Shown here: one piece after another, positions 1-27,476 of the stretch
Position numbering within the stretch: the first letter of the stretch is position 1
How the letters are laid out: every line of letters starts with the position of its first letter
Notes under the pieces: model-generated
Told to the model about the DNA's origin: nothing
The model's input: the letters and a program-made list of their open reading frames with translations, nothing else
The model's database searches: none
Program-made: the position numbers and the translations under genes
Assembly: GCA_016201015.1 (NCBI GenBank)
Contig: JACQDQ010000096.1
Span: 1-38,299 of the forward strand
Length of the DNA: 38,299 nucleotides
Source: Pseudomonadota bacterium
GTDB lineage: Bacteria; Pseudomonadota; Alphaproteobacteria; CACIAM-22H2
Reading direction: 5' to 3'

Positions 1-755
1 CGCGAGGCGGAAAAGCGCGGCTCGACCGCCAGCGTCGAGCCGGTGAGCATCGCCTGGTAGAAGCTGTTGAGCGCGTTGGTGTGGAAGAGCGGCAGCGTGG
101 TGCAGAGCACGTCCCCCTCGCGCACGTCGAGCAGCTGCGCGGTGTTGACGCCCCACCAGAAATACTGCGCGTGTGGGCAGCACACGCCCTTCGATGGGCC
201 GGTGGTGCCGGAGGTGTAGAGGATCGCCACCGTGTCGCCGGGGTGAAGCGCCGCGGGCGGCAGTGCTTCACCGGATGGCGGCAGTTTCGTGCATGCCCAG
301 CCATGGACTGAGACGGGGTCGCCGCCGATGAGCCAGATCTGCTCCAGCTTCAACGCACGGGCATCGAGTTGCTCCAGGGCACCAGTTAGGTGGGACTCGA
401 TGGCCAGCAACCGCGCGCCCGAATTGGCCAAGAGATGCTGGAGCTGCAGCCCGCGCGCGGCGGTGTTGAGTGGCACGGCAATCGCGCCCAGCCAGGCGCA
501 GCCGAGGAACACCTGCAGGAATTCGGCGCGGTTGGAGCACATGAGGGCGACGCGATCGCCGGTCCGGATGCCTACAGCGGCGAGAGCGCCGGCGAAGCGC
601 GCCGCCATCGCCCGCGTCTCTTCGTAGGTCCAGGCGACATCGCCGGCGACGAAAAGACGGCGATCGCCATGGCGAAGCGCTTGCCGCGCGAGCATCGTCG
701 GCAGCGTGCGCTGGTGCGGCGCAAAGGCGGCGATGATGTCGGTCGCGTCGCTCAT
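1..755 (-). CDS. AMP-dependent acyl-CoA ligase, N-terminal part (cut by window edge)
   Basis: This is the N-terminal 251 residues of an ANL-superfamily AMP-forming acid:CoA ligase; the 3' end lies outside the window. Family members adenylate a carboxylic acid with ATP and transfer the acyl group to CoA in the cytoplasm. The diagnostic P-loop-like motif YTSGTTGPSKG is visible near residues 180-190, preceded by GDTVAIL and followed by the LPLFHTNA segment typical of the family. The ATG at 755 has a GGAGAG ribosome site 8-9 bases upstream. It is the last visible gene of the minus-strand operon, 20 bases after the cyclase-like gene, so it probably activates the acid imported by the Liv-type transporter. 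The substrate cannot be read from this part. The family call is secure; the substrate is unknown. Confidence 0.93.
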   Translation of the reverse strand, partial: MSDATDIIAAFAPHQRTLPTMLARQALRHGDRRLFVAGDVAWTYEETRAMAARFAGALAAVGIRTGDRVALMCSNRAEFLQVFLGCAWLGAIAVPLNTAARGLQLQHLLANSGARLLAIESHLTGALEQLDARALKLEQIWLIGGDPVSVHGWACTKLPPSGEALPPAALHPGDTVAILYTSGTTGPSKGVCCPHAQYFWWGVNTAQLLDVREGDVLCTTLPLFHTNALNSFYQAMLTGSTLAVEPRFSAS

Positions 756-775
756 TTGCGTCTCTCCAGCGCGCC

Positions 776-1561
776 TCAGCCGCCCGGCACCAGTCCCAGC
801 ACGCGCAACGGGCTGCCGCTACCCTGCTTGATCTTGAGCGGCGGGCAGATGATCACGCTGCCGGTTGGCGGCAACAGGTCGAGATTGGCGAGACACTGAA
901 GGCCGTAGCGGCCGGCGCCGTGCATGTAGTAGTGGCAAGGGTATGGCGGCCGCAGGTGATAGGCCTGCCCGGCATCGGTCCCGATCGCCTCCGAGCCGAA
1001 GCCGAGCACGTCGCGATCGTTGACGAGAAACTTCACGGCATCGGCATCGGGTCCGGGCGTGTGCTGGCCGGTCTCGTCGAAATTCTGAAAGGCGATGGGG
1101 TCGGTACGCTTCGACCAGTCGGTACGCATGAGGACCCATGAGCGGCGCGGGATTGGCCCGTGCCGCTTCTCCCAATCGCGGATGAAATCGACCGTCAGCA
1201 AAAAATCGGGGTCGGCCGCGGATTCCTGCGAGCAATCGATGACGCAGGCGGCGGCGATGAAATTCTCGACCGGAATCGTGTCGGTGCTGTTGTTGGGCAG
1301 ATCCTTCCCGGAAATCCAGTGGATCGGCGCGTCGAAATGGGTGCCCGTATGCTCGCCGCACGAGAAGTTGTTCCAGTACCAGGCGGGGCCGCGCTCATCG
1401 TAGCGCGACACCTCCTCGATGCGGAACGGCCAGCATTGTCCCATTTCCGGCGGCAAGACGATCTGCGGGAAATCGGGTGAAAGCGTCTGGGTGAGATCGA
1501 CGACGCGGATGCGGCCCGCGGCGAAGGCGTTGACCAGCTGCAACAGAGTTTCCGCGCTCAT
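776..1561 (-). CDS. Cyclase family metal-dependent hydrolase (kynurenine formamidase-like)
   Basis: A 261-residue protein of the cyclase/KynB family (PF04199), whose members hydrolyse amides, lactones or related bonds using a metal bound by a HxGTHxDxPxH motif. The motif is intact here as HTGTHFDAPIH near residue 95. The N-terminal VVDLTQTLSPDFP segment is also typical. The open frame extends to a TTG at 1567, but the ATG at 1561 has a GAGG ribosome site 8 bases upstream and is preferred. It sits 51 bases after the DUF35-SDR gene and 20 bases before the acyl-CoA ligase gene, in one operon. In such catabolic operons the family often opens a ring or amide. The actual substrate is unknown. Confidence 0.9.
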   Translation of the reverse strand: MSAETLLQLVNAFAAGRIRVVDLTQTLSPDFPQIVLPPEMGQCWPFRIEEVSRYDERGPAWYWNNFSCGEHTGTHFDAPIHWISGKDLPNNSTDTIPVENFIAAACVIDCSQESAADPDFLLTVDFIRDWEKRHGPIPRRSWVLMRTDWSKRTDPIAFQNFDETGQHTPGPDADAVKFLVNDRDVLGFGSEAIGTDAGQAYHLRPPYPCHYYMHGAGRYGLQCLANLDLLPPTGSVIICPPLKIKQGSGSPLRVLGLVPGG

Positions 1562-1612
1562 CGCCAATGCCTCAATCCAACAGAGTTTCCTTTGCGTCCG
1601 ACACGAACCCGA

Positions 1613-2866
1613 TCAGCCGGCCCCGGCGGCCAGCTCGCGCTCGAGCGCCTTGGGGTTGTCGCGCCATCGCGCCAGCCATTCCTGCGCGACGTCGCCCGGA
1701 TAGACGTCTTCGATTCCGTCCTGCAGCGCCTTGACGATGGCGGCCGCGAGCGCCGCGGGGGCGAGCTTCGGCGGCAGGAGCTGCTGATTCCATTCGTCGT
1801 CGATCGGTCCAGGAAAGACATTGACGACGCGCACGCCGGATGCACGCATCTCGGCACGCAGGCATTGCGCCAGCGACAGGGCCGCCGCCTTCGAGGCGGA
1901 ATAGGTGCCGTGCGGCGGGAAGTTCGAAAGCGCGAATATCGACAGCAGATTGACCCAGGCGACCGCGCTCGATTGACCGTCGGCGCCGCGCGCGCGCATC
2001 GCCGGCGCGAATTCCTGCGCCAAACGCAGGAGCGCGAGATAGTTGGTCTCCATCTCAGCGCGGGCCGTTTCGACGCCGTGGCGCGAGGCGATGCCAAAAT
2101 TGCGATGGTGGTCGGCGGTGTTGATCAGGATATCGACGCGGCCGCCGATCTCCCCGGCAATCTCCTTGACCGAGCGAGAGTTGGTGACGTCGAGCGGCAG
2201 CAGCGCAACTTGCGGGATCGCCTTGAGCCGATCGAAGCCCGGGAGCTTCTTCCACGGCTCGGCATGGCCCACCCAGATGAGGTCCGCCCCGGCTGCGGCG
2301 ACCGCCTCGACCACCGCCTGGCCGGCGGCCGTCTTGCCGTCGGTGACCAGAACCTTGCGGAACTTGGGATCGCAGGTCATTTCCCTGAGTTGGCGGTCGT
2401 CGGCCATGTTCGGTGTTTCCTTCTCCGGCAATGCGACCAGCACGGCTTGGCCGGCGCGGTCGAGACAGGCGCGGATGCGCATGCGCGCCGGTGCCGCCGG
2501 GCAATCGCCGTGCAGATAGGCGATGACGGTCGGGCCGCAATCGAGCCGCACCATACCGAGGCGCCACGGCACGCGTTCGCGGAAGAACAGCTCCTGGCTA
2601 TGGCGCAGCAATGTCTCCGAGATCAGCTCGCCGGCGCCGTTCTGGACGCGCCAATCCAGGCGGTCCGACAGGCAGGCGCAGCACGCCTCGCGCGGCGGAT
2701 ACTGAACGGTGGCGCAATCGCGGCAGACCTGAAGCTCGAAGCTGCCGCGGGCGGCGGCGGCGGTGAGGCCAAGCGCGACGCGGCTGCGGATGGCCGGCGG
2801 CAGCGTCGGCAGACGCGTGCGCAGGACCGGGTTCTTGCGCTTGGGCCGGAGGAGCGGCGCCGTCAT
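1613..2866 (-). CDS. DUF35 OB-fold/Zn-ribbon protein fused to a short-chain dehydrogenase
   Basis: A 417-residue two-domain protein. Residues about 30-150 are a DUF35-type acyl-CoA-associated domain: a rubredoxin-like Zn ribbon with C48xxC51 and C62xxC65, then an OB-fold-like stretch. Residues about 168-417 are a short-chain dehydrogenase/reductase with catalytic Asn275, Ser309, Tyr322 and Lys326. The SDR nucleotide site is degenerate: the glycine motif reads TDGKTAAGQ and the NNAG motif reads NTAD. DUF35 proteins act as partners of thiolase-like lipid-transfer proteins (ChsH2 with Ltp2 in steroid side-chain cleavage), and the upstream neighbour, 4 bases away, is exactly such a protein. The ATG at 2866 has a GGAG site. 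Met154 at the domain boundary could in theory start a separate SDR, but the frame is continuous. The fused architecture suggests aldol cleavage coupled to redox of the released carbonyl, which is inference. Confidence 0.88.
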   Translation of the reverse strand: MTAPLLRPKRKNPVLRTRLPTLPPAIRSRVALGLTAAAARGSFELQVCRDCATVQYPPREACCACLSDRLDWRVQNGAGELISETLLRHSQELFFRERVPWRLGMVRLDCGPTVIAYLHGDCPAAPARMRIRACLDRAGQAVLVALPEKETPNMADDRQLREMTCDPKFRKVLVTDGKTAAGQAVVEAVAAAGADLIWVGHAEPWKKLPGFDRLKAIPQVALLPLDVTNSRSVKEIAGEIGGRVDILINTADHHRNFGIASRHGVETARAEMETNYLALLRLAQEFAPAMRARGADGQSSAVAWVNLLSIFALSNFPPHGTYSASKAAALSLAQCLRAEMRASGVRVVNVFPGPIDDEWNQQLLPPKLAPAALAAAIVKALQDGIEDVYPGDVAQEWLARWRDNPKALERELAAGAG

Positions 2867-2870
2867 AGCG

Positions 2871-4040
2871 CTAGCTCCGCGCGAGGATCGCGGCGCCGCT
2901 GCACAGGCCGCGATCGTAGTTGATCATGCCGAAGCCGCTCGCCATGCCGATCCTGGCATCTGCCACGGCGCCGCCGAGCGCTTGGCCGGTCACCTGCCGG
3001 ATCGCTTCGACCAGTCCGAGAAACCCGCCGGCGGCGCCCGCCTGGCCGACCGAAAGCTGGCCGCCCGAGGTATTGAGCGGAAACGATCCGTCGACGGTAA
3101 AGCTGTGCCGCCGCACGAAATCCGGCCCTTCGCCCTTGCGGCAGAAGCCGAGGTCTTCGAGCTGCATCATGGTGATCACCGGATAGTCGTCGTAGGCCTC
3201 GACGAAATCGATGTCGCCGGGGGGAATCCCGGCCTGGCGGTAAAGCTCATCGCAATCCAGCACCCAGCCGCCGCGATACTGGACCGGATCGTCGGGAAAG
3301 GCGTTGTGCCGCTCGATCGTTGCGAGGACCCGAGCGTAGGCCAAGTCGAGCTCTTCCGCCCGCTCGCGCCGCAGGACGAGGAATCCCTCGGCACCGGCGC
3401 AGGGCATCACGCAGTCGAACAGGCGCAGCGGGTCGGCGATCGGCCGCGCGCTGAGATATTCGGCGAGGGTCAGCGCCTTCTTCATGAGAGCGTAGGGAAA
3501 TTTGAGCGCGTTGGCGCGCTGCGCCACGCAGAGTTTGCCGAAATCCTCGGCCTCGGCGCCGTAGCTGCGCATGTAATGCGCGGTGAGAAACGCGAAACTG
3601 GCGTTGGGCCCGCCGGAGCCGTAGGGGTAGACGGCGTCGCGGGCAAACTGGCTGAAGGTCGCCGTGTTCAGGCGGAACGAGTCGGTGTGGTTGGTGTCGC
3701 CGGCGATGCAGGCGACGATGTCGGCATCGCCGCATTGAACCGCTCGCGCCGCGCGGCGCAGGGCGACGACCCCACTGGCGCCGCCCATCGGAATATGGTC
3801 GAGCCAGCGCAGCGTGAAGCCGAGATGTTGCGTCAATCCCACCGCCGTGTCAGGCGCCAGCGTGAAGCTCGATACGCACAATCCCTCGATCTTGTCCTTC
3901 GTCAGGCCCGAGCGCTGCAGCAGCTCGGCCAGTACGCGGGCAAGAAACCAATGCGCGCCACGGATCGAATAGCGCGCATAAGGCACGGTCACCGGAACCG
4001 CGACCGCCACGTCGTCATAGCCTGTACGTCGACGGGTCAT
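2871..4040 (-). CDS. SCP2/Ltp2-like thiolase homologue without the catalytic Cys (probable acyl-CoA aldolase)
   Basis: A 389-residue thiolase-fold protein of the nonspecific lipid-transfer (SCP-x/Ltp2) group. In true thiolases the nucleophile lies in a CASG motif. Here the segment reads MGGASG (residues 85-90), so Gly87 replaces Cys. The C-terminal GHP motif after NTSGG is changed to GQA (Gln333 in place of His). These losses fit the Ltp2-type retro-aldolases, which work with a DUF35 partner, rather than a Claisen thiolase. The EAYDDY segment at residues 281-286 is typical of the group. The ATG at 4040 has no good ribosome site but overlaps, as ATGA, the stop of a possible 20-codon frame beginning at 4099, so coupling is possible. 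It lies directly upstream of the DUF35-SDR gene. Family is confident; aldolase activity is inferred from context. Confidence 0.88.
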   Translation of the reverse strand: MTRRRTGYDDVAVAVPVTVPYARYSIRGAHWFLARVLAELLQRSGLTKDKIEGLCVSSFTLAPDTAVGLTQHLGFTLRWLDHIPMGGASGVVALRRAARAVQCGDADIVACIAGDTNHTDSFRLNTATFSQFARDAVYPYGSGGPNASFAFLTAHYMRSYGAEAEDFGKLCVAQRANALKFPYALMKKALTLAEYLSARPIADPLRLFDCVMPCAGAEGFLVLRRERAEELDLAYARVLATIERHNAFPDDPVQYRGGWVLDCDELYRQAGIPPGDIDFVEAYDDYPVITMMQLEDLGFCRKGEGPDFVRRHSFTVDGSFPLNTSGGQLSVGQAGAAGGFLGLVEAIRQVTGQALGGAVADARIGMASGFGMINYDRGLCSGAAILARS

Positions 4041-4106
4041 GTCGACCGGCGCCGGCAGGCGGTCGCTGCTCTTGCTGCCATGGTCAGCGGACTCTGCATG
4101 GCCGCA

Positions 4107-4826
4107 TCACGCCTGGCCGCCGAGATAGGTTGCGACGACCTTGGGGTCGTGCATCAGCGCGGCGGCGGCGCCGGAGTGGGCGATCTCGCCGGTCTCGAGG
4201 ACATAGGCATAGTCGGCAGTCTCGAGCGCGGCGAGGGCGTTCTGCTCGACGAGCAGGATCGAGACGCCGCTGCTGCGGAGCGAAGCGATGATGCGAAAGA
4301 TCTCGCGGACCACGAGTGGGGCCAGGCCCAGGCTCGGTTCGTCGAGCAGGAGGAGGCGCGGCCTGGCCATCAGCGCGCGGCCAAGCGCCAGCATCTGGCG
4401 CTCGCCGCCCGACAGCGTCGCGGCAAGTTGGTTGCGCCGTTCGGCGAGGCGGGCAAAGCGCTCGAAGACCGTGGCCAGGTCTTGCCGTACGCCCTCGCGG
4501 TCGCGCCGGCGCGCATAGGCGCCGAGAAGAAGATTGTCGATGACCGAAAGCTCGCCGAACAGCTCGCGGCGCTCGGGAACTAGGCAGAGGCCGCGCGCGA
4601 CCCGGTCCTCGATCTCCAACCGACGCAGATCGATGCCGTCGAATACGATGCGGCCGCGCGAGGGCAGCAGCCCGATCGTCGCCTCGAGCAGCGTGGTCTT
4701 GCCGGCCCCGTTGGGGCCGATGACGGTGACGATCTGGCCGGCCTGCAGGGAGAGCGACACGCCGCGCACCGCCTCCATCTTGCCATAGGCGACGTGGATA
4801 TCGTCGATCTCGAGAAAAGCGCTCAT
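4107..4826 (-). CDS. livF: Branched-chain amino acid-type ABC transporter ATPase LivF
   Basis: A 239-residue ATPase of the HAAT (LivF) family, on the cytoplasmic face of the transporter. It has Walker [10 protein letters not shown] near residue 40, the ABC signature LSGGERQM near residue 140, Walker [12 protein letters not shown], and the switch region SILLVEQNA typical of LivF. Its start overlaps the stop of the upstream livM-livG fusion by four bases (ATGA), indicating translational coupling. Together with livH, the livM-livG fusion and the divergent binding protein it completes one HAAT importer. Liv-type transporters in catabolic operons often carry aromatic or other carboxylic acids rather than leucine, and the CoA ligase and aldolase-like genes downstream point that way here. 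Confidence 0.95.
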
Positions 4827-6589
4827 GTCACGCCGCCAAGATAGGCTTGGCGCACTCTGGGATCGGCGCGAATCTCGGCCGGCAACCCTTCGGCCAGCTT
4901 GACGCCGAAATCCATGACGACGATGCGATCGACGAGACCCATGACGAAATCCATGTCGTGCTCGACCAGCAGGATCGTCACGCCTTCGCTGCGAAGCGCG
5001 CGGAGAAGATCGGCGAGGGCGTTCTTGTCCGCGCGCCTGAGGCCGGCCGCGGGCTCGTCGAGGATGACGAGAGCCGGGTCGGCGGCGAGCGCGCGCGCCA
5101 CTTCGAGGATGCGCTGGCTCGCCAGCGGCAGATTGCCGGCAAGCTCATAGGGTCGGTCGCCGAGGCCGACGCGGTGGAGCTGGTGCATCGCCTCGGCACG
5201 CACGGCGCGCTCCTCGCCGCGGTCGAGATGCAGCGCCCCGGCAAGGAACCCGGCGCGCGTGCGGAGATAGGCGCCCAGCACGACATTATCCAGCAGCGTC
5301 ATGTTGGGGCGCAGTTTGACGTGCTGGAATGTGCGGGCGACGCCGCGGGCCGCGATGCGCCGCGCCGCTAGACCGCTGATGGCCTGGCCCTGGAGCACGA
5401 TCTTGCCGCGATCGGCCTTCAACACGCCGGTAATCAGGTTGAACATGGTGCTCTTGCCGGCGCCGTTGGGGCCGATGAGGCCAAGGATCTCGCCCGCCCT
5501 GAGTTCGAAGCTGACGTCGCTCACGGCGACAAGCCCGCCGAAGCGTTTCATCATGCCGTCGACCTTAAGCAGCAACGTGCCCGCCTGCGGCAATGTGCGG
5601 CGCGGCAGCGGCGGGGCGGCGGCCGGCGGTGGCGGAGTATGCTTGGGCAGGCGACGGCGGAGGAACGGCACCAGCCCGCCGCGCGCATGCTGCAGCAACA
5701 GAACGAAGAGCGCGCCGAAGAAGACGATTTCGAGCTGGCCGCTGTTGCGCGAGATGGTGGGAAGCACATCCTGCAGCGCGTTCTTGAGCAGCGTCACCAA
5801 CGCCGCGCCGACCACCGCGCCGGCGATATGCCCCGAGCCGCCGGCGAACGCCATAAGCAGATACTCGATTCCCGGCTTCACGTCGAACGGCGCCGGGCTC
5901 ACGAAGCGCTGCAGATGTGCGTAGAGCCAGCCGGCGAGGCCGGCGAAAAGGCCGGCGAGCACGAACACGGCAAGACGAATCCGAAAGGTGTTGATGCCCA
6001 GGCTTTCGGCCATCGCCGCGCCGCCGCGCAGGCTGCGGATCGCGCGGCCCTCGCGCGAGTTCAGGAGGTTGGCGCTGAGCCACATGGCGCCGGCGAGAAA
6101 CAGCCAGATGAGATAGTAGATCGCACCGGCGGCGGCGAAGGAGATCGATCCCACCTGGATCGGCGGAATGCCCGAGATGCCGTTGAAGCGGCCGAGCATC
6201 TCGATATTGCCGAAGAGGTAATAGATGGCGATGCCCCAGGCGATGGTGCTGAGCGGCAGGAAATGTCCTTCCAAGCGCAGCGTGACGGCGCCAAGCACGG
6301 CCGCGACGCCGCCGGTGAGCGCCAGCGCCAATAGTAGCCCCAGCCAAGGGGGGGCGCCGTGGGCGGTGGTCGCCCAAGCGGTGGCGTAAGCGCCGATGCC
6401 GACGAAGGCGGCCTGACCGAACGAGGTGAGGCCGCCGATGCCGGTCAGCAGCACCAATCCGAGCGCCACCAGCGCATAGACGCCGATGTAGTTGAGCAGC
6501 GTCACCGTGAAGCTGCCGAGCACCAGCGGCGCCGCCGCCAGCGCGGCGGCCGAGACGAGGAGCAGAAGCATGAAATGCGCGGGCCTCAT
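4823..6589 (-). CDS. Fused LivM permease - LivG ATPase of a HAAT-family ABC transporter
   Basis: A 588-residue fusion. Residues 1 to about 325 are a LivM-type permease with roughly eight to nine hydrophobic segments and the typical [16 protein letters not shown] and [16 protein letters not shown] motifs. After a Pro/Ala-rich linker (about 315-340) comes a complete LivG-type ATPase with Walker A GPNGAGKS, the LivG-style signature region [17 protein letters not shown], Walker [12 protein letters not shown] and [13 protein letters not shown]. LivM and LivG are usually separate genes, although fusions are known in proteobacteria. The gene overlaps livH upstream and livF downstream by four bases each (ATGA), so the three are translated as a coupled set. 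No frameshift is needed; the fusion is one open frame. Confidence 0.94.
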
Positions 6590-7641
6590 GCGGCATCCTC
6601 GGCTTCATCCTCGTCCTCGAGATGGGCGAATGTGAGCGAGCGCCAGAGCAGCACGGGAATAAGCGAGGCGAAGACCACGACCTCTTTCAGCGAGCTGTTC
6701 CAGAACGAGGCGTAGCTTTCGAGCAGACCGACAAAAACTGCGCCAAGCGCGGCCACCGGATAGCTCACCAATCCGCCGATGATGGCGCCGACAAAGGCCT
6801 TGAGCCCGAGGATGAATCCGGAATCGTAATAGAGCGTCGCCACCGGGCCGATCAGGATGCCGGAAGTCCCCGCCAGCACCGAGGCGAGCAGGAAGGCCAG
6901 TTCGCCGGCCGCGGCGGGCCGGATTCCGACCAGCCTGGCGCCGGTGCGGTTGATCGCCGTCGCGCGCAACGCCTTGCCGGCCATCGTCCGCCCGAAGAAC
7001 AGGAACAACAGCAGGCCGAACACGATGGAGGCGCCGACGATCAGCAGCGATTGTCCGGTGATCACGATCGTGCCGATCGTGAACATCGCGCGCGTCAGCG
7101 GCTCCGTCCGGAAGCCCTCCGGTCCGAAGAACAGCAGCGCGAGTCCGGAAATGGCGAAGTGCACGGCCAAGGCGACGATCAGCAGCACCAGGACCGGCGC
7201 ATCGGCGAGCGGACGAAAAGCGATGCGGTAGAGCAGCGGGGCAATCGGCATCACCAGCGCCAGTGCCAGGGCGATCTCGGCGGCCATCGGCAGCCGTTGA
7301 CCGCCGACGATCCACACCGCCGCTATCGGGATCAGCGGCAGGACGGCATAGTGGAGCAGAGCCATGGGGAGACGATGCGCCTCGCCGCGGCGCAGCAGTG
7401 TGTAGACCTCCATGGCGAGCGCGAGGCCGGCCAGCGTCATCACCAACCATATCGTCCCCGGCGTCCGCTCGAGCTGGAACGACGCGAGAGTGAGCGCCGC
7501 ATAGGCGGCGATATCGCCGAACGGCACGAAGATGACGCGGGTGACGGTGAAGATGAGCACCGTGCCGAGGGCCACCAGCACATAGATCGCGCCGTTGGCG
7601 ATGCCGTCCTGCGCCAGCAGCAGTGCAATCTCGAGGTTCAT
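6586..7641 (-). CDS. livH: Branched-chain amino acid-type ABC transporter permease LivH
   Basis: A 351-residue inner-membrane permease of the HAAT LivH family. The N-terminus MNLEIALLLAQDGIANGAIY is the usual LivH start, and about eight to nine hydrophobic segments follow. The conserved loop KALRATAINRTGARLVGI near two-thirds of the length is the ATPase-contact region. The open frame extends upstream to 7755 through a non-homologous stretch; I chose the ATG at 7641 because homology begins there and a GGGGG tract lies just upstream. Length is somewhat above the common 290-310 because of an extra segment near residues 80-170. It is the first gene of the minus-strand operon and is transcribed from the AT-rich region shared with the divergent MarR-type regulator. 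Confidence 0.93.
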   Translation of the reverse strand: MNLEIALLLAQDGIANGAIYVLVALGTVLIFTVTRVIFVPFGDIAAYAALTLASFQLERTPGTIWLVMTLAGLALAMEVYTLLRRGEAHRLPMALLHYAVLPLIPIAAVWIVGGQRLPMAAEIALALALVMPIAPLLYRIAFRPLADAPVLVLLIVALAVHFAISGLALLFFGPEGFRTEPLTRAMFTIGTIVITGQSLLIVGASIVFGLLLFLFFGRTMAGKALRATAINRTGARLVGIRPAAAGELAFLLASVLAGTSGILIGPVATLYYDSGFILGLKAFVGAIIGGLVSYPVAALGAVFVGLLESYASFWNSSLKEVVVFASLIPVLLWRSLTFAHLEDEDEAEDAA

Positions 7642-7678
7642 GTCCCCCAACGCAGCACCCTCGGAACTTCGACCTGGA

Positions 7679-7703
7679 TTTATACCAGAATTTCTTATAT
7701 AAA
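7679..7703. promoter_or_regulatory. 25-bp near-perfect dyad, candidate MarR-type operator between livH and the regulator
   Basis: Centred on base 7691, outer arms TTTATA (7679-7684) and TATAAA (7698-7703) and inner arms AGAA (7687-7690) and TTCT (7692-7695) pair in 10 of 12 positions. It lies in the only AT-rich stretch nearby, between the divergent start codons at 7641 and 7731. A third copy of the outer arm (TTTATA, 7714-7719) lies just before the regulator's ribosome site, making a second, spaced inverted repeat with 7698-7704. TATA-like sequences inside it could also be -10 elements. Position, symmetry and the adjacent winged-helix gene make it the likely binding site of that regulator. 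Confidence 0.72.
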
Positions 7704-7730
7704 ATGTCTGATTTTTATAAGGATCTGTTG

Positions 7731-8315
7731 ATGGAGCGCGCGCGATCGAAGGCACGTCTTGTCGATCCGAGCCCGGAGGCCGCGACGGCGGTCGCGCCCG
7801 ACAATGCCTCGCGACACGAACAGGTGGTCACCGCCTTCGAGTATGCCGTCTGGCACCTCGGCTCGGCCTTCGCCCGCTGGCGTCGGGACTGCCTGGCGCG
7901 CCTGCCCGGCGGCGACGAACTCTCGGGCGCGGAAGCGTCGATCCTGCACATCATCCATGTCAACGACACCGCCAAGGGCCTGGCGGAGATCAGCCGCCTG
8001 CTGCATCGCGACGATCTTTCCAACATCCAATACGGCCTCAAGAAGTTGCTGACTCTGGGCTACATCGAAAAGGCCAACCCGCGCGCGCCGCGCAAGAGCG
8101 TCAGCTATCGCGTGTCAACCCACGGGCGCGTGCTCATCGAGGCGTATCTGCGCCTGCGCCGCGATGTCCTTCTACGGCTGACGGCGCGCCTTGCCGGCAC
8201 CACGGCGGAGATCGAAAGCGCGACATTGCTTCTGCATCTGATGATCGGGGTCTACGACCAGGCCAGCAATGTCGTCGTCGGACACGGCGATGCGTTTGGC
8301 CGCATGCGCCCTTGA
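7731..8315 (+). CDS. MarR-type winged-helix transcriptional regulator
   Basis: A 194-residue regulator of the MarR-like group of COG5631. The winged helix lies at about residues 65-130: SGAEASILHIIHVNDTAKGL, then EISRLLHRDDLSNIQYGLKKL as the recognition segment, and KSVSYRVSTHG as the wing. Flanking helices at both ends probably form the dimer. In-frame ATGs exist at 7704 and 7731. The second is chosen because AAGGA lies 8 bases before it, while 7704 has no ribosome site and overlaps the operator-like dyad. It is divergent from the livH operon and precedes the binding-protein gene by 141 bases. It probably senses the imported acid or its CoA ester and represses both directions through the dyad at 7679-7703; this is inferred. 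Confidence 0.88.
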   Translation: MERARSKARLVDPSPEAATAVAPDNASRHEQVVTAFEYAVWHLGSAFARWRRDCLARLPGGDELSGAEASILHIIHVNDTAKGLAEISRLLHRDDLSNIQYGLKKLLTLGYIEKANPRAPRKSVSYRVSTHGRVLIEAYLRLRRDVLLRLTARLAGTTAEIESATLLLHLMIGVYDQASNVVVGHGDAFGRMRP

Positions 8316-8456
8316 GCTTTGACGTTGACCCGAAGGCACGCAAGAGGTTCGATCTTCGCAATGGTGAATTTTGATGACCAGGGCTTGTGCAGCGAAGCTC
8401 ATCGACGGCGCTGGCGGCTTGGTTCGATGCGAAATCTCGTAACAGGGAGGGTAATC

Positions 8457-9623
8457 ATGTCGACTTCCATCAAACGGCTGAAACAGGTGCTCGCCGGAGC
8501 CGCCCTTGCCGGCGCCTTCGCTGCGACGGCGGCGGCGCAGACCGAAATCAGGGTCGGTCACATCACCTCGCTCTCGGGTCCGGTCTCGACGATCGGCGTT
8601 CCGTATTCGAAGGGCATGAAGGCCGGCAACGCCTTCATCGGCGAGATCGGCGGCTTCAAAGTGCGCGTGATCGAGCTCGATGACGCGTCAGACCCCTCCG
8701 CGGCAACCCGCAACGCGCGCAAGCTGATCGAGGAAGACAAGGTCGACCTGATCGTCGGCACGGCCGGCTCGCCGCTGTCGATGGCCGTCGCCGCCGTCAC
8801 CCTCGAGCAGAAGGTGCCGCAGATCGCCATCTCGCCGATCGCACTGCCGGCCGAGCGCCAGGGCTGGGTGATCGTGGTGCCGCAGCCGCCCCCGCTGATG
8901 GTCGCCGCGGATGTCGAGCACATGAAGAAGGCCAATATCAAGACGGTCGCCTATATCGGCTACAGCGACGCGTGGGGCGACCTGGTCTATGACGCGATCA
9001 TGAAGACCGCCGGACCGGCCGGCATCAACGTGATCACCAACGAGCGCTATGCGCGCGCCGACACCAGCGTGACGGCTCAGGCGCTCAAGATCGTTGCCGC
9101 CCGGCCGGACGCGGTGTTGACCGGCGGCTCGGGCACGCCGGGTGCCTTGCCGCATATCGGGCTGGCCGAGCGCGGCTTCAGAGGGCCGGCCTACAGCACG
9201 CACGCGATCATCAATCCCGACTTCATCCGCGTCGGCGGTCCGTCGGTCGAAGGCGTCATCGCGCCGACCGGCCCGGTGGTCGTGGCTGAGCAGCTGCCGG
9301 ACTCGAACCCGATCAAGAAGGTGGCGATGCAGTTCCGCGAGGTTTACCAAAAGGCGCTCGGCGAGCCGACCAAGGACGCTTTCTCGGCCTATGCCTTCGA
9401 CGGCTATCTCATCTTCGCCGACGCCGCCAAGCGGGCGCTCGCCAAGGCCAAGCCGGGCACGCCGGAGTTCCGTACGGCGTTGCGAGACGCCATGTTCGCG
9501 ACCAAAGAGCTGGTCGGCACGCACGCCGTCTACAACTTTAAGCCAGGCGAGCTCTACGGCGTCGACGAGCGGGCACGGGTGATGGTGCGCCTCGAGAAAG
9601 GCCAGTGGAAGCTAATGCCGTAG
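8457..9623 (+). CDS. Periplasmic substrate-binding protein of a Liv/HAAT-type ABC transporter
   Basis: A 388-residue type I periplasmic binding protein (Peripla_BP_6). A signal peptide is clear: MSTSIKRLKQ, a hydrophobic core rich in Ala/Gly, and cleavage near ATAAAQ-TEI. The mature part opens with IRVGHITSLSGPVSTIG, characteristic of LivK-type proteins, followed by YSKGMKAGNAFI and the GSGTPGALPH segment. The ATG at 8457 follows a GGGAGGG ribosome site; the upstream frame back to 8319 is not conserved-looking. It lies downstream of the MarR-type gene and divergent from the permease and ATPase genes, with no other binding protein for that transporter nearby. Ligand unknown; an aromatic or branched carboxylate is suggested by the downstream CoA-based enzymes. 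Confidence 0.94.
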   Translation: MSTSIKRLKQVLAGAALAGAFAATAAAQTEIRVGHITSLSGPVSTIGVPYSKGMKAGNAFIGEIGGFKVRVIELDDASDPSAATRNARKLIEEDKVDLIVGTAGSPLSMAVAAVTLEQKVPQIAISPIALPAERQGWVIVVPQPPPLMVAADVEHMKKANIKTVAYIGYSDAWGDLVYDAIMKTAGPAGINVITNERYARADTSVTAQALKIVAARPDAVLTGGSGTPGALPHIGLAERGFRGPAYSTHAIINPDFIRVGGPSVEGVIAPTGPVVVAEQLPDSNPIKKVAMQFREVYQKALGEPTKDAFSAYAFDGYLIFADAAKRALAKAKPGTPEFRTALRDAMFATKELVGTHAVYNFKPGELYGVDERARVMVRLEKGQWKLMP

Positions 9624-10056: not shown

Positions 10057-10138
10057 TATGGCCTGATTGCCGGTTCCGGCGCCGAGCTCGCCGTCAAGTC
10101 CAAGCAGCAGACCTGCCATCTCGGCGGGGCGGCGCGGA

Positions 10139-11068
10139 ATGTCCATGACCGGCCGCGGCAGTCAGGCGGACGGCACAGCGCCACATTCAACGTCGTGGCG
10201 TCCGGGCACGGCATTCTGGTTCCTGCTCCCGGCGGCCGCCGTTCTCATCGTCATCTATGCCGGGCCGCTGCTGTTCGCCTTCCATGCAAGTTTCACCGCA
10301 TGGTCCCTGGTCCAGCCGGGCAGCGACAAAGACTACGTCGGCCTGCAGAACTACGAAGATGTGCTCGGGAGCGGCGAATACTGGAACGCGGTCTCGGTCA
10401 CGCTGCGCTACTCGCTATCGGCGGTGGCGATCGAGCTGGTGGTCGGTACCGCTTTTGCCCTTCTGCTAAATCTCGAATTCTTCTGCCGCAGCATGTTCCG
10501 TTCGCTGATGGTGATTCCGATGGTGATGACGCCGGCGGTGACCGGCATCTTCTGGAAGCTGCTCTACGAACAGCAATCTGGCGTCTACAACTACTTTGTC
10601 ACGAGCGTCGGCTTGCCGCGGGTCGCTTGGCTTGGCGTCGACATGTCGCTGGTGTCGATCATCATCATGGACGTCTGGCAGACGTCGCCCTTCTTCATGC
10701 TGGTCATCCTGGCGGGCCTGCAGTCGATCGACGAGAACGTGATCGCCGCGGCCAAGGTCGACGGGGCCAGTGCGTCGCAGATGTTCCGCTATATCACGCT
10801 GCCCTTCCTCGCCCCCTACATGGCGATCGCCGCGTCGTTTCGAATCATCGCGTCGATGGGCGACTTCGACAAGATCTTCCTGGCGACAGCGGGCGGCCCG
10901 GGCAGCGTCACCACGACGATGAGCATCTTCGCCTTTAAGACCGGATTCAACGCCTTCGACATCGGCCGGACGACGTCGATCGCCTTGATATTCGTGCTTA
11001 TCGTGCTCAGCGTCAGCGCGCCGTTGCTTTGGTTCCTGTTCAAGTCGACGGCGGCGGAGCGGCACTAG
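10139..11068 (+). CDS. Carbohydrate-type ABC permease (MalF/UgpA family), system A
   Basis: A 309-residue inner-membrane permease of the MalF/UgpA type (BPD_transp_1). About six hydrophobic segments are seen, starting with FWFLLPAAAVLIVIYAGPLLFAF near residue 25. The cytoplasmic EAA-type loop AAKVDGASASQMFRYITLPFLAP that contacts the ATPase is clear near residue 215. The frame is open upstream to a TTG at 10067 but that part is Ser/Pro-rich and not family-like; the ATG at 10139 (or 10145) is preferred although its ribosome site is weak. It is followed after two bases by a MalG-type gene. No ATPase gene is present in this operon. Substrate unknown. Confidence 0.92.
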   Translation: MSMTGRGSQADGTAPHSTSWRPGTAFWFLLPAAAVLIVIYAGPLLFAFHASFTAWSLVQPGSDKDYVGLQNYEDVLGSGEYWNAVSVTLRYSLSAVAIELVVGTAFALLLNLEFFCRSMFRSLMVIPMVMTPAVTGIFWKLLYEQQSGVYNYFVTSVGLPRVAWLGVDMSLVSIIIMDVWQTSPFFMLVILAGLQSIDENVIAAAKVDGASASQMFRYITLPFLAPYMAIAASFRIIASMGDFDKIFLATAGGPGSVTTTMSIFAFKTGFNAFDIGRTTSIALIFVLIVLSVSAPLLWFLFKSTAAERH

Positions 11069-11070
11069 AA

Positions 11071-11892
11071 ATGTACCGGTACCGCACGCTCAGGCGATCG
11101 CTGGTCACGCTGTTATGGATCGGCGTCAGCCTATTCTACCTATTCCCCTACACCTGGATGGTGATGACGGGTTTCCGCAATCCGATCGACACGCTCACCA
11201 TGCCGCCCCGATTCATTTTTCAGCCGAACCTGGAAGGCTTCCGCTACATATTCACGACGACCGGCTTCCAGCACTATCTCGTCAACAGCATCATCGTCAC
11301 GGTCAGCGCGACCGTGCTCATCATCGCGACCGCGGCGCCGGCGGCCTATGCGCTGACCCATCTCAAGACCCGAGGCCGGGCATTCCTGCTGGTCATTCTG
11401 GTCGCGCGGATGGTGCCCGGCGTCGCGGTCGTCATTCCGTTCTATCTCGTCGCGGCCAAGCTGGGTCAGCTCGACACCTACCATGTGCTGATCCTCATCT
11501 TCACGGCGTTCAACCTGCCGTTCGCAATCTGGCTGCTGCGCAGCTTCTTCCGTGAGATCCACCCCGAGTTGCGCGAGGCGGCGATCATGGACGGCTGCAG
11601 CGAATTGCGTGTCTTCGGCCGCATCATGCTGCCGCTCGCCGCGGGCGGCCTTGTCGCCACCGGCGTTTTCGTTTTCATCGCGGCGTGGAACGAGTTCTTG
11701 TTCGCGCTGGTGCTGACCAACTCGCAGGCGCCGACCGCGCCCATCGCTATTCTCGGCTTCCGCACCGAATACGGCACCCAATGGGGCGCTATCGGCGCGG
11801 CGGCGCTGCTCATTTCGACCCCGGTCATCGTCTTCGCCATCGTCATGCAGAAATACCTGGTGCGCGGGCTGACCATGGGCTCAATTCGATGA
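11071..11892 (+). CDS. Carbohydrate-type ABC permease (MalG/UgpE family), system A
   Basis: A 273-residue partner permease of the MalG family with about six membrane segments. The EAA loop EAAIMDGCSELRVFGRIMLP and the AAWNEFLFALVLT segment that follows are hallmarks of MalG/UgpE proteins. The ATG at 11071 lies two bases after the stop of the MalF-type gene, so translation is probably coupled; a GTG at 11029 would overlap the previous gene and adds no family sequence. It forms the membrane pore with the preceding permease and would receive substrate from the binding protein encoded at 12027. Confidence 0.94.
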   Translation: MYRYRTLRRSLVTLLWIGVSLFYLFPYTWMVMTGFRNPIDTLTMPPRFIFQPNLEGFRYIFTTTGFQHYLVNSIIVTVSATVLIIATAAPAAYALTHLKTRGRAFLLVILVARMVPGVAVVIPFYLVAAKLGQLDTYHVLILIFTAFNLPFAIWLLRSFFREIHPELREAAIMDGCSELRVFGRIMLPLAAGGLVATGVFVFIAAWNEFLFALVLTNSQAPTAPIAILGFRTEYGTQWGAIGAAALLISTPVIVFAIVMQKYLVRGLTMGSIR

Positions 11893-11910
11893 TTTCACAG
11901 GAAATGCCTC

Positions 11911-11928
11911 ACGGAAAAGGTTTTCCGT
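11911..11928. promoter_or_regulatory. Palindrome ACGGAAAA-GG-TTTTCCGT, candidate operator, copy 2
   Basis: Eight-base arms pair perfectly around GG. The first 16 bases match the site at 9987-10002 except at the central base (G for C). It lies 19 bases after the second permease gene and about 100 bases before the binding-protein start at 12027, where a separate promoter for the binding protein would be expected. Confidence 0.65.
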
Positions 11929-12026
11929 TGCTCTCGGACCCCGGCTGTGGAATACCTATCGACAATGGTCGGCGCCGCCCAACGCGGATGATCCGATCGT
12001 CAATTTGATCAGGGGAGACCGCCATC

Positions 12027-13313
12027 ATGTACATTAAGCGGCGCGATTTTGTTCTTGGAGTTTCATCGCTGGGGCTGGCCGGGCTGCCGCTGCGCAGTGC
12101 CGCGGCTCAGGAGCTGCCGCGGCGCTATGCCGGCAGCACCTTGAACGTCCTGACGCGATCCACCTCGGCCTTCGAGGGCACCATCCAGGTCGGCGCCCAG
12201 TTTACCGAGGCGACCGGCATCAAGCTGCAATACACGCGCGTCGCGCCCGGCGACCAATACCAGAAGTTGATGCTCGACCTGACCGGCGGCACGCATTCCT
12301 TCGACGTGACGTATTTCGTCTATCAATGGAAATACGAGATCGCGCCCTATCTCGCCGATCTTTCGACGCTCGAGAAGGACGTGCCGGGCGCGCCGCCACT
12401 GGTTCTCAACGACTATTCGCCCAAGCTGGTGGAAATCTACGGCAAGGTGGACAACCGCCTGGTCGGCCTGCCGATCCTCGCCGACGTCGCCTTCATCCTG
12501 TGGAACAAGGACGCCTACAAGGCCAAGGGGTTCGATCCCGAGATTGGCCCGAAGAGCTGGCAGGAGATCGTCGAGCGCGGCAAGAAGCTGACCGACGGCA
12601 AGCAGTTCGGCTATGGGCTGCCGGCCGGCAAGGCGATCCAGTGCGCGGTGACTTGGACGCTGCTCTATTACGGCTTCGGCGGCCGCTTCTTCGATGCCGC
12701 CGGCAAGCCCGATCTCGGTGGCGAGGCCGGGATCAAGACCATGCGGTTCATGGCGAACGAGCTGCAGCCGATCGCCCCGCCCGGCAACCTCGCCTGGGAC
12801 TACAACGAGATGCTGACCGGCTTCCAGACCGCCCAATCGACGCAGACTTTGATGTGGCCGGGCGGATTCGCGAACCTGTCCGATCCGACAAAGTCTTCGG
12901 TGGCGGGCCGATATGGGATGGTATCGCCGCCCGGCGGCTCGCTGCTCGGCGGCACCTCGATCGGCGTCAACGCCAAGTCGACGAATCTCGACGCGGCTAA
13001 GATGTACGTCGCCTGGATGACGTCCAAGGACACGGTCCGGCGGACCGCGCTGGTCGGCACGCCGCCGGCGCGCCTCTCCATCCTCCAGGATCCGGAATTG
13101 GTTCAACGCTTCCCGCATTACCCCAGGGTGTTGGCGGCACTGACCGGTGAGACATTCGGCTACATCCCGATGAAGGAAGCCGAGCAGGTCCATATCATGA
13201 TGTACGACGAGGCAAATGCCGCCTGCGCCAAGCTCAAGACGCCCGAGCAGGCGGCAGCCGACTTGCAGACAAAGGCGGTGGCGTTCATGACGCGGCGCGG
13301 CTATCTGCGCTGA
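12027..13313 (+). CDS. Extracellular solute-binding protein family 1, Tat-exported, system A
   Basis: A 428-residue carbohydrate-type binding protein (SBP_bac_1). The N-terminus has a twin-arginine signal, KRRDFVLGV, with a hydrophobic core and probable cleavage near SAAAQ. The mature domain opens with STLNVLTRSTSAFEGTIQ and contains the repeated hinge patterns of the MalE/UgpB fold, such as GLPILADVAFILWNKDAYKAKGF. The ATG at 12027 is preceded by AGGGGAGA. It is third in the system A set, after the two permeases and a 134-base gap that holds its own palindrome. Tat export implies folding in the cytoplasm before transport, seen in some alphaproteobacterial binding proteins. Ligand is not predictable from the sequence. 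Confidence 0.93.
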   Translation: MYIKRRDFVLGVSSLGLAGLPLRSAAAQELPRRYAGSTLNVLTRSTSAFEGTIQVGAQFTEATGIKLQYTRVAPGDQYQKLMLDLTGGTHSFDVTYFVYQWKYEIAPYLADLSTLEKDVPGAPPLVLNDYSPKLVEIYGKVDNRLVGLPILADVAFILWNKDAYKAKGFDPEIGPKSWQEIVERGKKLTDGKQFGYGLPAGKAIQCAVTWTLLYYGFGGRFFDAAGKPDLGGEAGIKTMRFMANELQPIAPPGNLAWDYNEMLTGFQTAQSTQTLMWPGGFANLSDPTKSSVAGRYGMVSPPGGSLLGGTSIGVNAKSTNLDAAKMYVAWMTSKDTVRRTALVGTPPARLSILQDPELVQRFPHYPRVLAALTGETFGYIPMKEAEQVHIMMYDEANAACAKLKTPEQAAADLQTKAVAFMTRRGYLR

Positions 13314-13360
13314 GGGACGTTTCCCGCCCGCGGCGACCGCGCGCGATGCGGAATTGTTTC

Positions 13361-13386
13361 ACCGGCCGGGACTAGTCCCGGCCGGT
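13361..13386. terminator. Perfect 26-bp GC-rich palindrome, probable bidirectional terminator
   Basis: The half ACCGGCCGGGACT (13361-13373) is followed immediately by its exact complement up to 13386, giving a stem of up to 11 pairs closed by a CTAG loop. It lies between the convergent binding-protein gene (stop at 13313) and LysR gene (stop at 13538), where a shared terminator is expected. No T tract follows on either side. Confidence 0.6.
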
Positions 13387-13456
13387 CAGAACCTGAAACT
13401 CTCCATCCGACCGGTCAAGAAATCCGGGAAACGCCTGTTTCGCGCATGACCCTGCC

Positions 13457-13482
13457 GGTATCCGGATGAAAATCGGGATACC
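13457..13482 (-). terminator. Hairpin downstream of the LysR gene
   Basis: GGTATCC (13457-13463) pairs with GGATACC (13476-13482); after one mismatch, GAT pairs with ATC around a GAAA loop. On the minus strand it lies 56 bases beyond the LysR stop codon. It lacks a T tract. It may terminate or stabilise the LysR transcript. Confidence 0.45.
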
Positions 13483-13537
13483 TGGTCGGTTCAGTTCAAG
13501 CCGTCGCAGCGCTGCGAGTTTCCAAATCGCCGTCGAA

Positions 13538-14443
13538 TCATCGCCGCGCAAGAAGACTTGATCCTATGACGCAATCGCGGATTGCCTGGATCACCAGCTT
13601 CATGCCATGGCCGACCTTGTCCGCTTGATAGGCGAGGTATAGGCGCGGCCGGACCAGGGTGGGCCGCGTCTTCAGCATCTCGACCTTGCCTAAGCACAGC
13701 TCGGTTCCCAAGATCGCCGGAGACAGGATGCTGACGCCTTCGCCGGCCGCGGTCAGCCGCGCGATCACCGATATGCTGTCGCAGGTGCCGAGCCGCTTGG
13801 GCTCGAGTCCCGCGGATCCGAACCAGGTCATCACCAATGTCATCAGGTTCGACGGTTCGGGCTGGGTGAACACCTGGTGTGGCATGAGGTCGGCGGGCCC
13901 GATCCAACGGCGCGCCAGGCTCAGCCGCGGGCTGGCAAACCACGCATGTTTCATGATGCCGAGCGGCGCGACGCGCACATGCGGCTTGACGTCGGGCTCC
14001 ACGACGATGGCAACGTCGATCTCGCGCTCGTTCAACCGCCGTTGCAGGATCGAGCTTTTTTCGATGGTAAGCGCCACGTCGAACCGGGCATCGCGCTTTT
14101 CGAGTGTGCCCAACAGCTCGGCCATGCAGCCGAGCGCGATGCTGGCCGGCGCGCCGAGACGAAGGCGCCCGTGCAGCGGATCGACGAGGCGCTGCCTTGC
14201 GGATATCTGACCGGCGAGCTGCATCATGCTGCCGACATCGGGCAACAATGTGGTCCCGTCATCGGTCAGCCGCATCTTGCGGCCCGCCCGTTTGAACAAG
14301 CGGACGCCCAGCGATTCCTCAAGGTTGTGGATGCGCAGGCTGACGGTCGGTTGCGTCAGATTCAATTGCATCGCTGCGGCGCGAAAACTGCCTAGCCGCG
14401 TTATCCAGTAGAAGGCTTCAATCTGACTGAGGGTCGCTTTCAT
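13538..14443 (-). CDS. LysR-family transcriptional regulator
   Basis: A 301-residue LysR-type regulator. The winged helix-turn-helix occupies residues 1-60: LSQIEAFYWITRLGSFRAAA, then LNLTQPTVSLRIHNLEESLG, the family signature. A co-inducer-binding domain follows from about residue 90, with RLRLGAPASIALGCMAELL opening it. The ATG at 14443 follows AGGA; a TTG at 14467 would add eight residues and is less likely. It is divergent from transport system B and convergent with system A, and probably controls system B. Two inverted repeats (14446-14460 and 14472-14489) lie just upstream, the first with the T-N11-A pattern of LysR boxes and overlapping its own ribosome site, which fits autoregulation. 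Confidence 0.94.
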   Translation of the reverse strand: MKATLSQIEAFYWITRLGSFRAAAMQLNLTQPTVSLRIHNLEESLGVRLFKRAGRKMRLTDDGTTLLPDVGSMMQLAGQISARQRLVDPLHGRLRLGAPASIALGCMAELLGTLEKRDARFDVALTIEKSSILQRRLNEREIDVAIVVEPDVKPHVRVAPLGIMKHAWFASPRLSLARRWIGPADLMPHQVFTQPEPSNLMTLVMTWFGSAGLEPKRLGTCDSISVIARLTAAGEGVSILSPAILGTELCLGKVEMLKTRPTLVRPRLYLAYQADKVGHGMKLVIQAIRDCVIGSSLLARR

Positions 14444-14445
14444 AT

Positions 14446-14460
14446 ATAGGGAAATCCTAT
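14446..14460. promoter_or_regulatory. LysR-box-like dyad ATAGG-n5-CCTAT
   Basis: The arms pair perfectly and contain T-N11-A (T at 14447, A at 14459), the pattern recognised by LysR-type proteins. It starts three bases upstream of the LysR start codon, so binding would block the regulator's own transcription or initiation region. Confidence 0.6.
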
Positions 14461-14471
14461 CATTCAACTAC

Positions 14472-14489
14472 GGACAATTCAATTTGTCC
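14472..14489. promoter_or_regulatory. Second dyad GGACAA-n6-TTGTCC in the LysR/system B gap
   Basis: Six-base arms pair perfectly around TTCAAT. It lies 11 bases from the LysR-box-like dyad and about 160 bases before the system B binding-protein start. Either a second LysR contact site or the site of another regulator. Confidence 0.5.
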
Positions 14490-14649
14490 CAATCTATCCT
14501 CGGCCTTATCGTCAACGGCGTGACGTCAAAAGGCGCGCGAGAGGCGGGTTCCGGCCGGACGCCCACAGCTTGAAATGCAATTCGCTTCAGGCGAGCAGCA
14601 CAATCCGGCTGATGACCGCAGCCTTCGCGGATACATGGGGAGCCAAACA

Positions 14650-15948: not shown

Positions 15949-15990
15949 GCATTGACGGTGGCGGGATCTGTACCTCGTATAGTCAAGTGG

Positions 15991-16021
15991 CCGCGGCGTA
16001 ACGGACTAGGTTATGCCGCGG
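15991..16021 (+). repeat. Strong intercistronic hairpin between binding-protein and permease genes
   Basis: CCGCGGCGTAAC (15991-16002) pairs with GTTATGCCGCGG (16010-16021) around a seven-base loop, with a single G-T position that is a G-U wobble in RNA. It starts 43 bases after the binding-protein stop. No T tract follows. The arrangement resembles hairpins that stabilise upstream binding-protein mRNA over the permease mRNA, as between malE and malF in enteric bacteria. Confidence 0.65.
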
Positions 16022-16079
16022 TCCGCATCGCGGAAGGGTTGGCACCGATCGGCCCGAACGGCGGCGGCCGATCGCGTCG

Positions 16080-17030: not shown

Positions 17031-17032
17031 GC

Positions 17033-17875: not shown

Positions 17876-17910
17876 GGCGCCGCTGATCGAGTGTTCAAGG
17901 TGGAGTGAAC

Positions 17911-19023: not shown

Positions 19024-19057
19024 ACGCGCCGTTGCAATAGGAAGGGACCAGGTCGCG

Positions 19058-19885: not shown

Positions 19886-19888
19886 CCG

Positions 19889-20923: not shown

Positions 20924-20934
20924 GAGAAAATACA

Positions 20935-25367: not shown

Positions 25368-25405
25368 CCTAGGGACCTCCCGCCGTCGTGGAGGAGATTA
25401 AAACA

Positions 25406-27466: not shown

Positions 27467-27476
27467 GGAGCAGCAA

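Follow-up and report, generated by a model that had tools for sequence, protein, structure and literature searches.

The minus strand of the window (the whole stretch of 38,299 nucleotides analyzed here) encodes a 417-residue protein in which a DUF35 acyl-CoA partner domain is joined to a short-chain dehydrogenase (SDR) fold, and which we identify by gene order as IadH of the auxin (IAA) degradation operon. Together with its thiolase-fold partner IadG, this protein would, as we largely infer, probably split dioxindole-3-acetyl-CoA into isatin and acetyl-CoA in a redox-neutral step with the SDR domain redox-dead. The fusion is a variant of the DUF35–aldolase kind, placed within a known operon at a step without biochemical assignment. 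Soil and marine bacteria that destroy auxin by means of the iad operon influence how plant roots grow. The IadF, IadG, and IadH steps of the published pathway rest on annotation; in their place we propose one redox-neutral reaction and name its putative catalytic tyrosine.

The fusion protein is intact and widespread

Matches of the window protein to zf-ChsH2, OB_ChsH2_C, and adh_short (the last over residues 171–362) all score above the Pfam gathering cut-offs, and both domains are predicted with confidence in the AlphaFold2 model (pLDDT 91.4, pTM 0.90). The OB fold finds 6ok1_B, ChsH2(DUF35), with an E value of 2e-4, as well as 9myr_B. The sequence-only reading had described one continuous 417-residue frame with an intact zinc ribbon, and both points hold. 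The frame is uninterrupted and lies on the minus strand, a detail that the reading omitted; read on the plus strand, positions 1613–2866 contain no gene. The four zinc ligands, Cys48, Cys51, Cys62, and Cys65, are invariant in 51 of 51 aligned orthologs. Conservation extends to the N-terminal extension, where Pro8, Pro13, Pro23, Pro24, Arg27, and Arg29 are conserved at 95% or above in the same alignment. The count of fusions given below is a lower bound.

Full-length orthologs were found by contig search at more than 50 loci, spread over more than 50 species of alpha-, beta-, and gammaproteobacteria, including Achromobacter, Pusillimonas, and Bradyrhizobium, and 49 further orthologs from this search align to the window protein at 43–77% identity with the domain order unchanged in all. 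A search of related genomes added one full-length fusion, 65% identical and from a different family, and a class-wide draw of genomes yielded more at 50–67% identity. The gene is plasmid-borne on 35 plasmids, from Labrenzia/Roseibium, Sulfitobacter, Paracoccus, Azospirillum, Neorhizobium, and others. As a check that did not favor fused genes from the outset, IadG alone served as the query against 399 genomes of the phylum; in seven of seven matches outside the window, the gene adjoining IadG is fused. A frameshift that joins two genes, a chimera, or a sequencing error is ruled out by the many uninterrupted full-length orthologs with the same domain order. A DUF35 partner fused to a dehydrogenase fold is thus kept in three proteobacterial classes despite the loss of the cofactor motif.

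Many relatives carry the fusion, though it is absent from all 22 other genomes searched in the window's own order, so its distribution is patchy. Among the matches listed, the closest orthologs (77%) come from betaproteobacterial metagenome-assembled genomes (L033–L045). This proximity, combined with the missing gene in the rest of the order, suggests that the window copy was acquired by horizontal transfer.

Table 1. Features of the fusion gene and its operon in the window
Feature	Position	Strand	Basis
Acyl-CoA ligase (AMP-binding), contig-edge fragment, candidate for the IadF role	1..755	-	
IadI-like isatin hydrolase-type cyclase-family protein (P0004)	776..1561	-	5nna isatin hydrolase A, E=1.8e-110
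IadH-like fusion protein, 417 aa	1613..2866	-	DUF35/ChsH2-type zinc ribbon + OB fold + pseudo-SDR
SDR-fold domain, residues 170–414, without TGxxxGxG	1625..2359	-	Pfam PF00106
OB_ChsH2_C OB fold, residues 72–125	2492..2653	-	Pfam PF01796
zf-ChsH2 zinc ribbon, residues 36–70, Cys48/51/62/65	2657..2761	-	Pfam PF12172
N-terminal extension, residues 1–35, KxPxxRT...PP..RSR motif	2762..2866	-	Conservation across 51 orthologs
IadG-like thiolase-fold protein (P0003), candidate retro-aldolase catalytic subunit, Y283-D-D285-Y	2871..4040	-	
LivF-type ABC ATPase	4107..4826	-	Also beside G-H-I in other loci
LivM-LivG fused permease/ATPase, one 588-aa ORF	4823..6589	-	Homologs beside G-H-I elsewhere
LivH-type permease	6586..7755	-	
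LivK-type solute-binding protein, divergent	8319..9623	+	Pfam PF13458

Gene order identifies the fusion as IadH

The search for DUF35–SDR fusions and the table of neighbors that the sequence-only reading had proposed reveal a fusion that recurs widely among constant neighbors. An Ltp2/Sal-like "thiolase" (IadG) lies directly upstream on the same strand in all 47 loci that extend far enough, with a 4-bp overlap between the two genes in 37 of them, and a gene of the isatin-hydrolase type lies downstream in 51 of 51 loci. On the Labrenzia, Sulfitobacter, and Paracoccus plasmids, the order runs PDR/VanB reductase, ring-hydroxylating dioxygenase alpha and beta, AMP-binding ligase, thiolase, fusion, cyclase, and SDR, with a MarR regulator nearby. 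The same gene set returns in Achromobacter, Pusillimonas, Hoeflea, Phaeobacter, and others, and the iad-type operons of three Achromobacter species (L048, L068, and L074) contain the fusion. The auxin degradation operon is ordered iadC-D-E-F-G-H-I-J (PMC12633357; PMC9613470). Because loci with an adjacent Rieske oxygenase match this order, the fusion protein is, by gene order, IadH; the comparison was made through the Achromobacter loci, whose iad genes reportedly resemble those of Variovorax closely (PMC9613470). In gene order, neighbors, and pathway position, the protein is like the IadH of the Variovorax, Achromobacter, and Bradyrhizobium operons; the window operon differs in having no iadCDE alongside.

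In the published pathway, IadG is labeled a ketothiolase and IadH an "alcohol dehydrogenase," said to be one which "likely facilitates further processing" (PMC12633357), and the database name for the whole fusion protein is NAD(P)-dependent oxidoreductase. We found no published description of the DUF35 part or of the SDR-motif loss in IadH, and in the open-access literature no paper treating IadG–IadH as a DUF35-type aldolase. A steroid side-chain pathway, considered by analogy with Ltp2, was rejected as the context since the neighbors are isatin-hydrolase-type and iad genes. The Pseudomonas LY1 IAA cluster that has also been called "iad" (PMC8383072) is an iac-type cluster and was set aside as not comparable.

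IadG resembles DUF35-dependent aldolases

The sequence-only reading noted that DUF35 proteins pair with Ltp2-type aldolases in side-chain cleavage, and the adjoining gene supports such a pairing here. By sequence, the nearest PDB entry to P0003 is CtSal (9myr, E=4e-46), with TcLtp2 (6ok1) third at 4e-36, and the predicted fold (model pLDDT 84.6) is likewise closest to 9myr and 6ok1; these are the structures of Sal–Shy(DUF35), the Comamonas bile-acid aldolase, and Ltp2–ChsH2(DUF35). In CtSal, the motif Y302DCY provides Tyr302 as base and Cys304 as acid, helped by Gln347 and Gln352, and a glycine occupies the thiolase cysteine position; TcLtp2 uses YDHF plus Tyr344 (PMC12329534). Replacing Cys304 of Sal with His, Ala, or Ser abolishes activity (PMC12329534).

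IadG shares with Sal the thiolase fold (its best fold match), the glycine in place of the thiolase nucleophile (Gly87, 62 of 63 family members), the conserved tyrosine, and the two glutamines (Gln328 and Gln333, 63 of 63). Its motif is YDDY in 62 of 62 sequences, in contrast to the YDCY of Sal. Asp285 stands at the place of Sal Cys304, and Gln333 at that of the second catalytic tyrosine of Ltp2. With the general acid, whether cysteine or second tyrosine, replaced, IadG forms a separate variant that is neither Sal nor Ltp2. From these residues, its active site is predicted to be aldolase-like, with an aspartate replacing the cysteine or histidine; we found no published precedent for aspartate as the general acid in such aldolases.

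The partner proteins show a similar mixture of likeness and difference. Shy and IadH both carry a DUF35 domain fused to another enzyme domain, but the extra domain of Shy is an active MaoC hydratase whereas that of IadH is a C-terminal SDR fold without the cofactor motif, and the zinc site of Shy is Cys3His where IadH has four cysteines. The DUF35 domain of ChsH2 is also fused to MaoC. With ChsH2, IadH shares the Cys4 zinc ribbon and OB-fold partner. Ltp2 acts on a steroid, cleaving a β-hydroxyacyl-CoA with a tertiary alcohol, and we propose the same chemistry for IadG–IadH.

The SDR domain has lost its cofactor motif under purifying selection

As first noted from the window, the TGxxxGxG and NNAG patterns are gone from the SDR part, their places taken by T175-D-G-K-T-A-A-G182 and NTAD. 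The glycine motif is found in none of the 51 fusions; its first glycine is Asp, Asn, or Glu in every one, and a glycine occupies the second position in only two. Asn275, Ser309, Tyr322, and Lys326, which had been listed as kept, are all found in the window protein, but Tyr322 and Lys326 are no family trait, with the tyrosine in 14, the lysine in 18, and both in 4 of the 51 sequences. As a control, IadJ, the operon's separate SDR, keeps TGxxxGxG, Tyr, and Lys in 34 of 34 sequences.

The closest subfamily and fold are those of the PRK08264-type SDRs and 5u4s, the best Foldseek match (TMt 0.92), which was crystallized with NADP and has a leucine at the tyrosine position. Ten stand-alone SDRs of the same subfamily retain [TS]GxxxGxG and the lysine without exception and the tyrosine in five, so that the tyrosine was already gone from 5u4s and half of these relatives, whereas the glycine motif is missing throughout the fusion family. 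Thus, the fusion shares the fold of classical NAD(P)-dependent SDRs, but neither TGxxxGxG nor a family-wide YxxxK. Certain Rossmann enzymes, FabI/InhA for example, do bind NAD(P) although they lack this classical motif. The SDR domain of the fusion may still bind a cofactor in an unusual way.

The domain is nevertheless maintained. Its dN/dS ratios (omega) of 0.04–0.30 in 13 pairs indicate strong purifying selection, similar to that on the DUF35 part, and Trp205, Asn249, Pro354, Trp359, Gln361, and Pro366 are invariant or nearly so across the 51 fusions. Asp226 (50/51), Asn249 (51/51), and Ser309 (50/51) are likewise conserved. That the fold is conserved while the catalytic residues are not is consistent with a scaffold or a module that binds a ligand, and we favor a redox-dead domain of this kind. 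Of the two roles first suggested for it, reuse of the fold for binding is therefore preferred, given the motif loss and the selection, to an active carbonyl-processing SDR. The accompanying idea of product channeling through an active SDR is not favored; a hand-over of product could still take place, since the next gene of the operon, of the isatin-hydrolase type, would process the carbonyl product.

A redox-neutral cleavage would deliver isatin to IadI

The gene that follows the fusion encodes a protein (P0004) with the metal motif HTGTHFDAPIH and GLQC. Across the IadI family, the HxG[T/A]HxDxPxH Mn site is present in 64 of 64 sequences and GLQC in 58 of 64. Assignment of P0004 as a kynurenine formamidase was rejected, with an E value of 4e-4 against about 1e-110 for isatin hydrolase A. 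In the Labrenzia plasmid locus, iadI (L028 13254-14027) encodes a protein nearly identical to LaIHA (5nna/5nnb), a measured isatin hydrolase with a Km of 16 µM (PMC6117287), which ties the structurally solved isatin hydrolase A to the iad operon. This likeness concerns the gene downstream of the fusion, and the window copy is a putative ortholog. In the iad preprint, IadI appears only as a possible broad-specificity amidase (PMC12633357). Given the hydrolase match and the activity of LaIHA, the product that reaches IadI is most simply isatin.

In Variovorax, deletion of iadF, iadG, iadH, or iadI leads to accumulation of C10H9NO4 (dioxindole-3-acetate) and a fall in anthranilate, and the preprint proposes, from annotation, a reductive removal of the acetyl chain (PMC12633357). 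Among the intermediates detected are isatin, isatinic acid, and dioxindole (PMC9613470). By mass balance, isatin (C8H5NO2) and acetic acid (C2H4O2) together make up C10H9NO4, and the conversion therefore requires no redox step. We propose that IadF makes dioxindole-3-acetyl-CoA, a β-hydroxyacyl-CoA with a tertiary alcohol at C3. By analogy with Sal–Shy and Ltp2–ChsH2, the DUF35 domain would bind IadG to form an α-β-β-α complex. Tyr283 of IadG would deprotonate the hydroxyl group at C3, retro-aldol cleavage of the C3–CH2 bond would release isatin, and the enolate of acetyl-CoA would be reprotonated, probably with Asp285 of YDDY in place of Cys304 of Sal. IadI would then hydrolyze isatin to isatinate, and the SDR domain, performing no redox chemistry, would serve as a structural or ligand-binding pseudo-dehydrogenase. 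A more specific version is tentative, and we hold it to be rather unlikely in full: the pair would be a third type of DUF35-dependent retro-aldolase, with YDDY and an aspartate donor, whose redox-dead SDR module holds isatin or organizes the complex and passes isatin to the hydrolase.

Alternative reactions and the substrate of the window operon

The chief argument that IadH contains a working reductase is that, when iadI is absent, it is C8H7NO2, the formula of dioxindole, and not isatin that accumulates (PMC12633357). We read this compound as a side reduction of isatin, yet it would fit a bifunctional IadH whose DUF35 domain supports IadG and whose SDR domain, despite an atypical cofactor motif, uses NAD(P)H to convert isatin or another carbonyl to dioxindole. 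The detection of dioxindole among the intermediates, the NADP bound by 5u4s despite its leucine, the conservation of Asp226, Asn249, and Ser309, and the retention of Tyr322 and Lys326 in the window protein all lean the same way. Against it stand the glycines lost throughout the fusions, the rarity of Tyr and Lys together, and the intact [TS]GxxxGxG of the stand-alone relatives; moreover, isatin reduction would be a detour, isatin being the direct substrate of the neighboring hydrolase. We regard an active reductase as improbable. Far less credible still is a true ketothiolase (IadG) acting with an alcohol dehydrogenase (IadH), although this agrees with the names in databases and with the pathway scheme of the preprint (PMC12633357). 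Glycine replaces the nucleophile in IadG, which is closest to aldolases, and thiolysis requires a β-ketoacyl-CoA. The ring carbon C3 of dioxindole-3-acetate bears OH and CH2COOH, is quaternary, and is not oxidizable to a β-ketone. Thiolysis is therefore chemically excluded, retro-aldol cleavage of the CoA ester is feasible, and we rejected the ketothiolase identity on residues and substrate chemistry together.

The retro-aldol cleavage may also act on something else in the window organism. The operon is ordered LivH-LivMG-LivF-IadG-IadH-IadI-ligase, the ligase being cut by the contig end; this fragment matches IadF weakly (62 bits over 251 aa). In most of the loci long enough to show it, G-H-I comes with a CoA ligase. 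Homologs of the LivK-type protein occur in the Achromobacter iad loci and in Bradyrhizobium loci. No iadCDE genes adjoin the window locus, and the best ring-hydroxylating dioxygenase alpha subunit genome-wide is 38–43% identical to the operon IadD, as in other such genomes; G770, G771, G772, G774, and G776 have no IadD at E<=1e-60. The operon could accordingly serve another indole or oxindole substrate, or imported dioxindole-3-acetate, with the G-H-I chemistry the same, a reading that is compatible with our explanation on chemistry and its rival on substrate only. We give it an appreciable but minority chance. Genomes with a similar split layout are of two kinds. In Bradyrhizobium and Azospirillum a strong IadD (67–71%) lies elsewhere, which speaks against this reading, as does the fragmented assembly of the window genome at 96% completeness. 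The others have none or a weak one, a hint that the pathway may be entered at dioxindole-3-acetate or a different oxindole. As the window genome has no clear iadD, its own substrate is less certain, the same compound or a close analog, and this lineage may rely on a different oxygenase or import dioxindole-3-acetate.

Other loci of the genome and contig

The layout transporter-G-H-I-ligase without adjacent iadCDE is seen in the window (1–7755) and in L030, L031, L052–L058, L076, and L080. The best IadD-like oxygenase of the window genome, with alpha and beta subunits (L119 6136-8072, G000:C29), adjoins another Liv-type transporter and is a possible functional substitute for IadDE. Two more thiolase-like/DUF35 pairs, unfused, lie elsewhere in the same genome (L120, G000:C332:10000-29900); they are of the lipid-transfer type and score weakly to IadG and IadH.

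On the plus strand of the window, two adjacent sugar/peptide-type ABC transporter sets with solute-binding proteins lie within 10067–22035, followed at 18944–22035 by an amidohydrolase, a GFO/IDH/MocA oxidoreductase, and a D-serine-dehydratase-like gene. Two hydantoinase/oxoprolinase A-B pairs (25388–29195 and 33239–37295, plus strand) are arranged around ABC transporter genes.
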